A DNA stretch of 64,000 nucleotides from Dethiosulfovibrio peptidovorans DSM 11002 (GTDB lineage: Bacteria > Synergistota > Synergistia > Synergistales > Dethiosulfovibrionaceae). A program made the translations under genes and the position numbers. Positions within the stretch are counted from its first letter, which is position 1, and each line of letters begins with the position of its first letter. This document shows, piece after piece, positions 57,536-62,302 of the stretch. Location of the stretch: positions 124,001-188,000 of the forward strand of contig NZ_ABTR02000001.1 in the NCBI RefSeq assembly GCF_000172975.1. The letters run 5' to 3'. The notes beneath the pieces were generated by a model. That model was given only the letters and a program-made list of their open reading frames with translations, had not been told where the DNA came from and did no database searches.

Positions 57536-58210
57536 CTAGCCTTCGTGTGGAAGCAGAACGTGAAGGGCTCTGGTGTAGCCCTCTTTCAGAGTCCAGTGTA
57601 TGTCACGAATGAAATCGGCGACCTCTCTCTTTTTACCTCCTTCGATCAGACCGACTATCGTAGAATGCTCCCTCCAGTACCCCAATTCCTCCGCCTTGAC
57701 CTCGGGAGAATCGAAATCTCTGGCAGGAAAGTTAAACAACCTGTCGTAAACGTCGTCCAGCTGTTTCCTCAACGGAACGTTTTTAGATAGATCGTGGAAA
57801 ACCGAGTGAAACATCCTGTTGAGTTCGTAGGCATAGGTGAAATCGTCTGATTCAAAGTAGTTCATTGCTTGATTAATGACATCCTTCATTCTGTTTATGT
57901 GAACCGGAGCTATGTAGTCGAAGACCGACATCATCAAAACAGACTCCAAACCAGCTCCTATCTGATATATGTCCCTTATAGTATCCATAGTAACGGGATT
58001 CACCATTATGCCCCTTCTGGGGTATATGGTAACTATTCCGTCAGACTCCAAAAGAATCAATGCATCCCTCAAAGGAGTCTTACTGATGTTCAAGGTTTCA
58101 GCCATACTACCCATATCTATATACCTACCAGGCTCCAAATTCCCCTGAGCCAATTCACTTCTCAGATAGTTATATACCTTCTCTCTGAGTGGAGTCCTGT
58201 CTTTTTCCAC
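57536..58210 (-). CDS. GntR-family transcriptional regulator with FCD domain
   Basis: The protein (224 residues from the GTG at 58210, GGAGG 7 bases upstream) has a winged helix (LREKVYNYLRSELAQGNLEPG, MAETLNISKTPLRDALILLE in part) and an FCD helical domain with metal-type histidines in NRMFHSVFH and REHSTIVGLIEGG. It lies divergent from the symporter operon with a palindrome-rich gap between them. I infer that it controls that operon in response to the imported compound. It ends at the shared terminator. Confidence 0.9.
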   Translation of the reverse strand: MEKDRTPLREKVYNYLRSELAQGNLEPGRYIDMGSMAETLNISKTPLRDALILLESDGIVTIYPRRGIMVNPVTMDTIRDIYQIGAGLESVLMMSVFDYIAPVHINRMKDVINQAMNYFESDDFTYAYELNRMFHSVFHDLSKNVPLRKQLDDVYDRLFNFPARDFDSPEVKAEELGYWREHSTIVGLIEGGKKREVADFIRDIHWTLKEGYTRALHVLLPHEG

Positions 58211-58356
58211 CTTGCCACCTCCGTATATCGACTCTCGACTAACCACCGTATTGTATCAGATAGGAGCTCAAATTTTTCTGCGGAGATTCAAAACACATAC
58301 TATCCCTATATCTAAATAAAGAGATAAAAAAACAAACTAGCAAGACAACGAATACG

Positions 58357-58386: not shown

Positions 58387-58498
58387 ATATCTAGACCTGA
58401 TACTTCAGGCATAGGAGGGGATTTAAAATCTAAAAAAATGCGCTCAGGCCATCAGAGACGACCCGGTCGTCGTGTTGGATAGGTTCGGAGGGAAAGAG

Positions 58499-59893
58499 AT
58501 GCTGGGAACGATTGATAACGTCATCATTCTGTTTTTCGTAATGTTAATCCTAGGAATAGGATACTACTTTTCCAAAACGGCCAAGAATATGGAAAGCTAT
58601 TATCTGGCCAACAGAAGCCTTCCTTGGTCCCTGGTGGTAGGGACTTTAGCGGCATCGTGGTACGGAGGAATCGGAGTTGTGGGAACGGTGGGATATGCGG
58701 CGGTCTACGGTATCTCCACCTGGACGATCTGGTCCATAGGAGCACACCTGGTCAGGATGCCTCTAGCCCTTTGGGTCGGTCCTCGGATACAGATAAGGAC
58801 CGACATCACAGTGCCGGACCTGCTTGAGAGTCTTTACGGACGTAAGGTCGCCCTCATAGGGGCAATTATGATGTTCTTCGTCTGCGCCCAGATCGGAGAG
58901 ATCACCGCAGTAGGTTACATCGGCCAGGCGGCCTGGGGGGTCAGCAACGTTACAGCTGGAACAGTCATGGTGATCATCGTGGTGGTACTAACGGTCCTCG
59001 GCGGCCTTATGGGGGTGGCTGTCACCGACATGATTATGTTCTTCTGCATGGTATTCGGGGTAACTATGGTCTTTCCCGGCCTGTTCACCGAGATAGGAGG
59101 ATGGGAGGGACTCAGACAGGCCTTGGGGGAAAACGTCAAATTAGTGGATCCTACAGGTGGAATGGGATTCTGGAAAGCGGTCATGCTGGTCATATTCTGC
59201 TTCAGCCCCTACGCGGACCCCACTTTCTATCAGCGTTTTTCCGCTTCCAATTCGCCTAAAGTCGGTAGAAGGGCTCTGCTTACCTGTTTTTGCATATGGA
59301 TAGCCTTCGATATAGTCATCTGCACCACAGGAGTCATAGTCAAGGCTCTCCATCCAACAGCCCAACCGGAGGTAGCCTACGTTCAGGTGGTCTTGGAAAA
59401 TCTCCCTATCGGCATAAGAGCTCTTTTCATAGTGGGACTTGTGGGAGCAATTATATCCACTTTGGACAGCTACTATCTGGTCGGAGGAACCACATTGGCG
59501 AACGATATTTACGCCAGGTACAAGGGTATAGGAACCCTGCCCCAAAAGACCATCGTCAACTACACCAGAGCTGCCGTCGTCATGTTGGGGATTATCGGCC
59601 TGTCCCTGGCCTTCAAGTTTACCCTGGTCTACGATGCTTTTCTTTTCGTGGGAAGCATATGGATGTCTGCCGCATTCGTCCCCATAGTCGGAGGACTCGT
59701 AAGCAAAGGACGAAAAACCGAGCTTGGTGGGCTGATGAGCATGCTGGTCGGAGGGGCTATCTTCGGGATATTGAAAATCTTTCCGGATATAACCGTCATA
59801 GAGCCTCTGGTTCTTTCATTGCCTGCATCGTTCGTAGCCTGGTATATAGGAAACCACTTCGGAGTGGACAGAAGCGATCTTTCGGTCCGATAG
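58499..59893 (+). CDS. Sodium:solute symporter family transporter
   Basis: The 464-residue membrane protein has about 13 helices and matches the SSS family (ESYYLANRSLPWSLVVGTLA, TVPDLLESLYGRKVALIGA, GALFIVGLVGAIISTLDSYYLVGGT-like segment near residues 300-325). Such carriers take up amino acids, organic acids or sugars with sodium. I chose the ATG at 58499, which has GGAGG 7 bases upstream. It is the first gene of the operon with the 82-residue membrane protein, the unknown protein and the lyase-like protein, and probably imports their substrate. Confidence 0.92.
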   Translation: MLGTIDNVIILFFVMLILGIGYYFSKTAKNMESYYLANRSLPWSLVVGTLAASWYGGIGVVGTVGYAAVYGISTWTIWSIGAHLVRMPLALWVGPRIQIRTDITVPDLLESLYGRKVALIGAIMMFFVCAQIGEITAVGYIGQAAWGVSNVTAGTVMVIIVVVLTVLGGLMGVAVTDMIMFFCMVFGVTMVFPGLFTEIGGWEGLRQALGENVKLVDPTGGMGFWKAVMLVIFCFSPYADPTFYQRFSASNSPKVGRRALLTCFCIWIAFDIVICTTGVIVKALHPTAQPEVAYVQVVLENLPIGIRALFIVGLVGAIISTLDSYYLVGGTTLANDIYARYKGIGTLPQKTIVNYTRAAVVMLGIIGLSLAFKFTLVYDAFLFVGSIWMSAAFVPIVGGLVSKGRKTELGGLMSMLVGGAIFGILKIFPDITVIEPLVLSLPASFVAWYIGNHFGVDRSDLSVR

Positions 59894-59908: not shown

Positions 59909-60157
59909 ATGAGCGATTACGTTAAAAAGGAAAACAAGGATCTGGAGATTAGCTGGATCGGGATAGACGGTTTTCTCATAGTCCTGTATCTGTCCATAGT
60001 GGGAATAATCTTCTACGCCCTCAAGACGTCCAACGACTTTATAGTCGGCAAATTCATACCCTACGCCGTAATGGCGGCGGTTACGGTGATATTTTTGACC
60101 TATCTGGTCAACGTGTTCTCTTTCGTGAAAAATCACCACGAGGAGTCGAACCGTTAG
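59909..60157 (+). CDS. Small two-helix membrane protein paired with the symporter
   Basis: The 82-residue protein has a charged start (MSDYVKKENKDLE), two membrane helices (about residues 18-40 and 48-71) and a short polar tail. A clear GGAGG precedes the ATG by 7 bases, and the gene lies 15 bases after the symporter stop. I do not recognise a family. Small membrane partners of SSS carriers are known in other systems (for example DUF4212 and YhdT types), so a symporter subunit is a reasonable inference. Confidence 0.75.
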   Translation: MSDYVKKENKDLEISWIGIDGFLIVLYLSIVGIIFYALKTSNDFIVGKFIPYAVMAAVTVIFLTYLVNVFSFVKNHHEESNR

Positions 60158-60159
60158 CC

Positions 60160-60711
60160 ATGGATTCGGTGGCGATACGCTCCTTTCCCATAGCCCTTTC
60201 TAGGGAGGACGCCATGGCACAGGCCTCCAAAAAAGGAGGCCCCTTTGGAAAGCTGCTCCTGATGGGGAAGGAGGTTCGAGAGTTGAGGCTTCACTTTGTG
60301 GAGTACAGCATACTGATATTCCAGGCACTCCACTCCCCTAACTTCGTCTCCAGGACCTTTTTCGGAGACAGAGACAAAAAGGCCCAGTTTTGCAGGGTCA
60401 TAGCCAACGGAACCACCGGAGGGGCAGCCTGGGCGGAGGATATCCCTCAGGGGCTTGAGGATCGGACGGTGCCGGAGGATCGGGTACAGGGTAGCCAGTT
60501 TTCCCTGGACCAGCTCACCGGAAGGGGACAGAAGCTGGTCCTTCGGGTTCTCAGGAGGAGGATTGGAGGTCTTCCTGAGGTTACCCTTAAAGAGGCTATA
60601 TCGGTCTACCGTCCCTTTTACGTCGCCCTCTACGGCGAGGCTGTGGAGGGCACCAAGATTCGCTATCTTCCCATAGCCGCCGACGGCTGGGGAACCCATC
60701 GGACTTTTTAA
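60160..60711 (+). CDS. Unknown 183-residue protein between symporter and lyase-like genes
   Basis: I do not recognise this protein. It is soluble-looking, without a signal peptide or membrane helix, basic, with aromatic motifs LRLHFVEYSILIF and SVYRPFYVALYGEA and a glycine/tryptophan-rich ending (AADGWGTHRTF). The start at 60160 lies 2 bases after the previous stop but lacks a good binding site; an ATG at 60214 with GGGAGG 5 bases upstream is a strong alternative (165 residues). It is 22 bases before the lyase-like gene, so it may be a partner subunit or a second enzyme of the same pathway. Confidence 0.7.
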   Translation: MDSVAIRSFPIALSREDAMAQASKKGGPFGKLLLMGKEVRELRLHFVEYSILIFQALHSPNFVSRTFFGDRDKKAQFCRVIANGTTGGAAWAEDIPQGLEDRTVPEDRVQGSQFSLDQLTGRGQKLVLRVLRRRIGGLPEVTLKEAISVYRPFYVALYGEAVEGTKIRYLPIAADGWGTHRTF

Positions 60712-60733: not shown

Positions 60734-62302
60734 TTGATCACGGAAGAGATAAAAAAAATAAGCTGGCGTCAGGCTCCCTCCATATCAAAGGTTATGCTAG
60801 GAGGTCCGATCTCCATCGAGGAAGTAGTGGCGGTAGCCCGTCACGGTGCCAAGGTGGAGTTCGGAGAGGAATATATAGACAGGGTGAATCGTTGCAGAGC
60901 CCACGTGGATCATTTCTCCAGGGAGGAGAAAGCCATCTACGGCATAACCACAGGGCTTGGAGAGAACTGGAACAGGTTTATTTCCCAGGAGGACAGGGAG
61001 ATAGTCCAGAGAAACCACGTCCTTTCCCATTCCTGCTCGGTCGGAGAGCCTCTGGAGGATGAGTGCGTAAGGGCCATGATGTTCGTCATGCTCCAGCACT
61101 TCGGGTCGGGACACACGGGGATGAGAATGGCCCCTCTGGAGCTTTTGGCCGGAATGCTCAACGCCGGAGTCGTTCCGGTGGTGCCAGGACACGGATCGGT
61201 GGGCTATATATGCTACGAGGCCCATATCGGCTCGGTCCTCATAGGAGAGGGGCAGGCGGTATACGGTAGACAGAGGATGAATGGATCGGAGGCCCTGAAC
61301 GCTGCTGGACTGGATCCGGTGGTGCTCTCCAGCAAGGAGGGGCTGACCATCGTATCGGGGACCACCTCCGTTACCGCCATAGGGGCCCTCGGACTATACG
61401 ATTCCCTTATGATAGCCCAGACCGCCGACGTGGCGGGAGCCATGTCGCTGGAGGTTTTAAAGGGAACTCTGATGGCGATGGACCCAAGGATACAGGAGGT
61501 TCGGCCCCATAGACACCAGGGAGACACCGCCTCCAACGTCAGGCGGCTCCTTGAGGACAGCGAAATCGAGAGGACATACCGAGGACACCGGGTCCAAGAC
61601 GCACTGTCCCTTCGGTGTATCCCTCAGCTACACGGTGCGGCGAAAAAGATACTCACCGACGTGCTTGAGACAGTGTCGGTAGAGCTTAACTCGTCGGTGG
61701 ATAATCCCCTAATATTCGACACCGAAGACGGAGGCGAGGCCCTTATGGGCTGCAACGCCGACGGATCTTACGTTGGAATGGGCTGCGACTGCGCAATCAT
61801 AGCCCTTACAGGTCTTGCCAAGATGTCCGAGAGGCGACTGGACAGGACGGTGAACCACCACGTCAGCGAGCTTCCCGCCTTTTTGAACGCAAACCCCGGC
61901 TTCAACAACGGCCTGATGATCCCTCAGTACGCCGCGGCAGGGCTTTTAGGGGAGATGAAGACCTTAAGCCACCCTTCCACGGTGGACAACGGCTTCACCT
62001 GCGCCAACCAGGAGGACTATACCAGCATGGGAGCCAACGCGGCGGTCAAGCTCTACAGAGGGGCCTCTTTGGCGAAGTACATACTCTCGGTTGAGATCCT
62101 GAACGCCTGTCAGGCCCAGGATTTTTACGACATAGCCCCCTCCCCTGCCACTAAGGCGGTCCACGACAGGGTCAGGCAGGAGGTCCCAAAGGTGGAACAG
62201 GATACCTTTATGTCCCCCCTCATGGAGGCCATAGCGAGGATGGTGAAAAACGGCGAGATCCTCTCCGCCGCCGAGTCGGTGACAGGGCCGCTGGAGTTTT
62301 AA
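60734..62302 (+). CDS. Histidine/phenylalanine ammonia-lyase homologue lacking the MIO triad
   Basis: The 522-residue protein aligns along its whole length with HutH (YGITTGLG at 69-76, LSH at 97-99, VQDALSLRCIPQ at 287-298, SVDNPLIF at 321-328, ANQED at 424-428). However, the Ala-Ser-Gly triad that cyclises to the MIO cofactor is Tyr158-Ile159-Cys160, with three residues missing after it. Equivalents of HutH Asn195, Tyr280 and Phe329 are Ser208, Leu291 and Ala342. Tyr69, His99, Gln288, Arg294 and Glu427 remain. It therefore cannot be an ordinary histidine ammonia-lyase; its reaction is unknown. The start is a TTG with GGGAGG 7 bases upstream. It ends the symporter operon before a 23-base hairpin. 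Confidence 0.9.
   Translation: MITEEIKKISWRQAPSISKVMLGGPISIEEVVAVARHGAKVEFGEEYIDRVNRCRAHVDHFSREEKAIYGITTGLGENWNRFISQEDREIVQRNHVLSHSCSVGEPLEDECVRAMMFVMLQHFGSGHTGMRMAPLELLAGMLNAGVVPVVPGHGSVGYICYEAHIGSVLIGEGQAVYGRQRMNGSEALNAAGLDPVVLSSKEGLTIVSGTTSVTAIGALGLYDSLMIAQTADVAGAMSLEVLKGTLMAMDPRIQEVRPHRHQGDTASNVRRLLEDSEIERTYRGHRVQDALSLRCIPQLHGAAKKILTDVLETVSVELNSSVDNPLIFDTEDGGEALMGCNADGSYVGMGCDCAIIALTGLAKMSERRLDRTVNHHVSELPAFLNANPGFNNGLMIPQYAAAGLLGEMKTLSHPSTVDNGFTCANQEDYTSMGANAAVKLYRGASLAKYILSVEILNACQAQDFYDIAPSPATKAVHDRVRQEVPKVEQDTFMSPLMEAIARMVKNGEILSAAESVTGPLEF

Follow-up and report, generated by a model that had tools for sequence, protein, structure and literature searches.

The window analysed here, a stretch of 64,000 nucleotides from Dethiosulfovibrio peptidovorans DSM 11002, encodes a protein of the aromatic amino acid lyase family that lacks the residues from which MIO is built, and this raises the question of what such a protein can do. 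PF00221 was the sole Pfam family in this protein, the window lyase (517 bits, 5.2e-155, residues 27-482). The gene and the altered site are as follows.

60734..62302, + strand: MIO-free PF00221 lyase ORF of 522 aa, with a TTG start and AGGGAGGGA upstream
61205..61213, + strand: codons of Tyr158-Ile159-Cys160, TATATATGC; MIO enzymes have Ala-Ser-Gly-Asp-Leu-Ala here, and the window lyase has three residues fewer

The window lyase reads GSVG-YIC-YEAH where MIO enzymes read GSVG-ASGDLAP-LAH. In an alignment with P. putida HutH, positions 141-152 (GASGDLAPLAHM) were matched by GY---ICYEAHI, an in-frame deletion of three residues, and the Ala/Ser-Ser-Gly triad for MIO is absent. An earlier note on this DNA had described the replacement of the triad by YIC in an intact frame, which the alignment confirmed, and had considered a sequencing slip unlikely. 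A slip or a defect of a single genome is now excluded, since three genomes of the same genus (L004-L006) carry the identical motif and all 71 de-duplicated members of the clade described below carry the same deletion. The lyases of these congeners are 96-97% identical to the window lyase (a Dethiosulfovibrio MAG, the closest relative with a name, has 96%), and the dN/dS of 0.05-0.07 against the three demonstrates strong purifying selection, which argues that the window lyase is a working protein.

In the AF2 model of the window lyase (pLDDT 81.5, pTM 0.87), two segments, residues 71-76 and 419-426, had low confidence. The PF00221 aromatic amino acid lyase fold was supported both by sequence (Pfam) and by the predicted fold (Foldseek). 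HutH (P. putida, 1GKM/1B8F; T. acidophilum, 7TQR) was closest by both measures: Foldseek returned P. putida HAL as best match (TM 0.86), followed by ergothionase (TM 0.82), and the closest solved structure by sequence was T. acidophilum HutH 7TQR (3.9e-91), with ergothionase 6S7J at 7e-45. The MIO aminomutases and other ammonia-lyases (SgTAM, AdmH, PAL/TAL) share the fold, all use MIO and are more distant than HutH. A hutH label had been called wrong beforehand, and this holds, as the triad is gone and the window lyase scores below both NCBIfam histidine ammonia-lyase cut-offs (TIGR01225, 494.8 < 539.15; NF006871, 496.3 < 524). A hut-linked member of the same clade from Sporomusa silvacetica (L140) scores above the NF006871 cut-off (537.6 > 524) and would therefore be misnamed histidine ammonia-lyase.

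The catalytic and binding roles of the HutH residues are established, and eight of them were paired with residues of the window lyase (HutH/window): Tyr53/Y69, His83/H99, Asn195/S208, Gln277/Q288, Tyr280/L291, Arg283/R294, Phe329/A342 and Glu414/E427. All eight assignments of the earlier note, with Tyr69, His99, Gln288, Arg294 and Glu427 retained and Ser208, Leu291 and Ala342 altered, were correct in the alignment. The codons of the residues that bear on function are listed here.

60938..60940, + strand: Tyr69 (HutH Tyr53), retained in MIO enzymes, ergothionase and the window clade
61028..61030, + strand: His99 (HutH His83, imidazole contact), retained in nearly all clade members
61217..61219, + strand: Glu162 (HutH Leu149), Glu in 70/71 clade members and Leu in 33/33 MIO enzymes
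61613..61615, + strand: Arg294 (HutH Arg283, carboxylate contact), retained throughout
61760..61762, + strand: Asp343 (HutH His330), Asp in 71/71 clade members, His in 33/33 MIO enzymes and Glu in 14/15 of the ergothionase clade
62012..62014, + strand: Glu427 (HutH Glu414), retained throughout

Thus, the residues of HutH that bind imidazole and carboxylate (His83, Arg283, Glu414) and its base (Tyr53) are all present in the window lyase, whereas the MIO-facing Asn195 and Tyr280 have become Ser208 and Leu291. Besides the missing Ala-Ser-Gly, the window lyase differs from HutH by the lack of Asp145 and by Leu for Tyr280, Ala for Phe329, Asp for His330 and Glu for Leu149. Ser208 is not diagnostic, because some clade members have kept Asn at this position. 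Tyr69, Gln288, Arg294 and Glu427 are found at no less than 93% in the MIO, ergothionase and window clades alike, in agreement with the proposal that the fold and part of the acid-base machinery are kept. This conservation also bears on whether the protein serves another reaction or has become a binding protein, both of which the earlier note had allowed. The loss of the defining cofactor would suit a non-catalytic binding or regulatory protein, yet we regard this as highly improbable in view of the four residues kept in all three groups, the position of the gene in transporter operons, the strong purifying selection and the fact that the MIO-free relative is a known enzyme. Another reaction is favoured instead, one in which, as with ergothionase, a group that leaves more readily is eliminated.

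Three residues are specific for the clade, namely Tyr158 (67/71), Glu162 (70/71) and Asp343 (71/71), and both MIO-free clades have an acid in place of His330 of the MIO enzymes. These three may have roles around a trimethylammonium group; that the acid at the Asp343 position contacts this group is a guess. Attention had previously been directed to the pocket around Cys160, but this position is occupied by S, G, A, T, D or L elsewhere in the clade, which excludes Cys160 as catalytic residue. The letters YIC are likewise no signature; that of the clade is GSV[GQ]Y---[LI]xxE[AG]H.

Relatives were obtained by searching the phylum and by scanning 84,980 species genomes with two peptide patterns. 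The scan yielded 321 confirmed loci, not all necessarily of the window type, of which the best 80 were used. Every window-type relative examined has lost the same three residues. The 71 de-duplicated members, from Synergistota and Bacillota with few elsewhere, formed one supported clade (SH-aLRT 96% with 119 rows; 99/97 in a 47-row tree) in trees from which the deletion and loop columns were omitted. The question whether YIC-type proteins form a clade of their own with a shared neighbourhood was thus answered by an own clade and by recurring gene neighbourhoods.

To our knowledge, ergothionase (Treponema denticola, PDB 6S7J/6S7Q) is the only MIO-free PF00221 enzyme known; PMC13405746, citing Maurer 2019, reports that it lacks MIO. 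As ergothionase is already MIO-free, a point missed by the earlier note, the loss of MIO in the HAL fold has a precedent. Ergothionase cuts a C-N bond by acid-base elimination of trimethylamine from a histidine betaine. The window lyase could accordingly be an ergothionase that converts ergothioneine to thiourocanate and trimethylamine, given the same fold, the lost MIO, the 6S7J and Foldseek matches and a transporter subfamily that both have nearby (see below). In free trees, however, the ergothionase clade (T. denticola 6S7J) was separate with support 100, and the window clade grouped with the MIO HutHs, at an identity of ~42% compared with ~31% to ergothionase. The loops also differ, as ergothionase has lost one residue (GSVGEADIT, with Glu at position 142) and the window lyase three. 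Lys383 of 6S7J (position by our own count), which we take to be catalytic in ergothionase, is Lys in 12/15 rows of the ergothionase clade and Tyr in 70/71 window-clade members (Tyr399 in the window lyase). In five loci (L101, L104, L131, L162, L171) a true ergothionase gene adjoins the window-type lyase, so that a second ergothionase would be redundant. We therefore consider this reading rather unlikely, and plain membership in ergothionase is unsupported by the trees and by the Lys383 position. A forced union of the two MIO-free clades was not rejected (AU p 0.168), which speaks for kinship with ergothionase; MIO was likely lost twice separately, in the window clade and in ergothionase, and the AU test weakens this as a firm statement. 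Ergothionase-type genes were common in Synergistota (L034-L044, L047), with several copies in some genomes; PMC13405746 does not include this phylum in its brief list of organisms with ergothionase.

The substrate is approached through the gene neighbourhood. In the window, the order is symporter, small membrane protein, orphan and lyase, with a divergent regulator.

57536..58246, - strand: GntR/FCD regulator (Pfam), divergent, also at other Synergistota loci
58472..59893, + strand: sodium:solute symporter (SSS; Pfam PF00474, 1.1e-24), beside 10/21 window-subclade loci
59909..60157, + strand: 82-aa membrane protein after the symporter, without a Pfam match, which adjoins the symporter in other genera too
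60160..60711, + strand: 183-aa orphan protein, which recurs beside the lyase type or the symporter in Synergistota and Bacillota; 19 homologues were aligned

The symporter is the presumed importer of the lyase substrate, the 82-aa protein is possibly its small subunit, and the regulator likely controls the lyase operon. For the orphan, no Pfam family scored above its cut-off, and its AF2 model, although confident (pLDDT 87.8), matched no PDB fold significantly.

Within five genes of 88 lyase loci, BCCT transporters were found at 37 (33 directly adjoining the lyase), SSS symporters at 23, the orphan at 19 and an iron-sulfur protein at 18. These neighbours differ from those of control HutH loci, where BCCT occurred at 1/18 and the other three at 0/18, one Sporomusa locus with both lyases in one cluster being set aside. 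BCCT or SSS was present at 60/88 clade loci versus 1/18 control loci (Fisher p 7e-7) and BCCT alone at 37/88 versus 1/18 (Fisher p 0.003), tests that overstate independence because the loci were chosen by similarity and many are related. Within the window subclade, SSS (10/21 loci) and BCCT (5/21) never occurred together, as if the two were interchangeable. The BCCT neighbours, like the urocanase neighbours, were confirmed by Pfam, and the closest solved relatives of the clade BCCT are BetP, the trimethylamine transporter and DddT. BCCTs adjacent to ergothionase (L171, L200) belong to the same subfamily (median identity 53% and 44%; core 62%), outside of which lie the general BCCT of the D. 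peptidovorans genome (29%), which does not adjoin the window lyase, and a HutH-adjacent BCCT (33%). The iron-sulfur protein, of ~320 aa with an N-terminal Cys-rich part and a C-terminal 4Fe-4S pair, was seen beside the lyase in L075, L077-L084, L093, L095, L098-L100 and L102; as an obligatory partner it is excluded, since the D. peptidovorans genome lacks it and gave only ferredoxin-domain matches.

Genes of histidine utilisation point to the product. hutU and/or hutI, often with FtcD, lay within five genes of the lyase at seven loci from two subclades. The neighbouring HutU, HutI and FtcD scored above their own NCBIfam cut-offs and HutU scored far below the thiourocanate hydratase cut-offs, which disfavours thiourocanate as product and, by model score, also speaks against an ergothionase. 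Two Sporomusa genomes (S. silvacetica and Sporomusa sp. KB1) have a single HutU, which lies in the lyase operon; their HutH is located elsewhere, without HutU. HutU was present in 40 of the 43 lyase-bearing genomes searched and missing from three. A 44-kb contig of Natroniella acetigena (L197, L198) carries two MttB genes, a B12-binding protein, HutU, FchA, FtcD, HutI, XdhABC, ergothionase, BCCT and a window-type lyase, and HutH was not found in this genome; the contig has the appearance of an acetogen's island for histidine betaines. XdhABC, a xanthine-dehydrogenase-type molybdenum hydroxylase, adjoins the lyase and/or ergothionase in L078, L090, L091, L097, L123, L131, L156 and L171, and possibly catalyses an additional step in the metabolism of histidine betaines or thiourocanate.

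The nearby hutU and hutI in related loci, together with the retained imidazole and carboxylate residues, would also be compatible with an unmethylated substrate turned over without MIO, by slow histidine deamination, imidazole-lactate dehydration or a urocanate hydratase/isomerase step. This would leave unexplained both the betaine-type transporters and the persistence of the lyase in genomes with a normal HutH, and we think it quite improbable. Taken together, the BCCT subfamily, the hut genes and the Natroniella contig suggest that the cell imports a histidine derivative with a quaternary amine, eliminates trimethylamine from it and delivers urocanate to the hut pathway. Hercynine (N,N,N-trimethyl-L-histidine) is the compound that fits the transporter and hut context. 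From sequence and gene context, we hold it moderately probable that the window lyase is an MIO-independent HAL-fold lyase acting on a histidine betaine, most likely hercynine, to give urocanate and trimethylamine; leaving group, exact substrate and product are inferred in the same way.

None of the 21 window-subclade loci has hut genes within five genes, so this subclade and the hut-linked ones may have different substrates, and for the former the link to urocanate would run through its relationship to the latter, a similar pocket and partner genes in common. This speaks for a trimethylamine lyase that acts on a different aromatic betaine (from Trp, Tyr or Phe) or on some other derivative of histidine that carries a good leaving group, as does the diversity of other subclades, in which a WEDP/QEDP pocket type, a kept Phe329, TRAP transporters and, in some, tandem copies were observed; the clade hence need not share one substrate. 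Such a reading appears unlikely for the window lyase, since the imidazole-binding pair of HutH is retained as His99 and Glu427 and the first-shell motifs of its subclade (QDALSLRC, CNAD, QEDY) are nearly those of a hut-linked subclade.

In the proposed hercynine reaction, BCCT or SSS would import the quaternary-amine histidine derivative, Arg294 would bind its carboxylate and His99 and Glu427 its imidazole. Tyr69 would then abstract the beta proton, trimethylamine would depart without MIO, and urocanate would enter the ordinary hut pathway to glutamate. In MIO enzymes the electrophile is required, since ammonia leaves poorly. The trimethylammonium group is already activated, which would make MIO dispensable, as reported for ergothionase (PMC13405746). 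The MIO-building loop and the facing Asn195, Tyr280 and Phe329 would thereby be free to change, and the residues that hold imidazole and carboxylate and serve beta-proton removal (His99, Glu427, Arg294, Tyr69, Gln288) would stay.

The one other PF00221 gene of the D. peptidovorans genome (2.58 Mb) lies near hutU and hutI and encodes a normal HutH in which ASG is present. The genome thus carries HutU, but a supply of urocanate is no proof of function given this HutH. MttB was not found in this genome, and trimethylamine would therefore be excreted.

The family of the window lyase is large and unstudied, and probably removes trimethylamine, not ammonia, from methylated histidine. At about even chances, it would constitute a second MIO-free HAL-fold family besides ergothionase, widespread in anaerobes and gut bacteria and filed as or near histidine ammonia-lyase, that takes hercynine to urocanate and trimethylamine by an undescribed route. 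A search of open-access papers returned no report of a hercynine lyase or an MIO-free histidine lyase. In people who ingest ergothioneine, hercynine is one of the main metabolites in urine (PMC7653990). If the proposal is true, many genes scored as histidine ammonia-lyase perform another reaction, current predictions of how many anaerobes metabolise histidine are wrong, and a source of trimethylamine, from which TMAO is formed, has so far gone unlisted in gut bacteria. MIO would also have been lost twice within one fold, with loops that differ and leaving groups of the same kind, making the purpose of MIO directly testable by comparing MIO and MIO-free cousins on amine and trimethylammonium substrates.

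Two further observations concern PF00221 diversity. An MIO-bearing group has Asp in place of HutH His83 (L048-L051, L058-L060, L069, L183, L194), and its members are therefore probably no histidine ammonia-lyases either. At L086:7164-13450, four tandem MIO-free lyase paralogues (GSVQY, GSVQA, GSIQN, GSIQS) are followed by a TRAP transporter, an arrangement that likely reflects substrate diversification.
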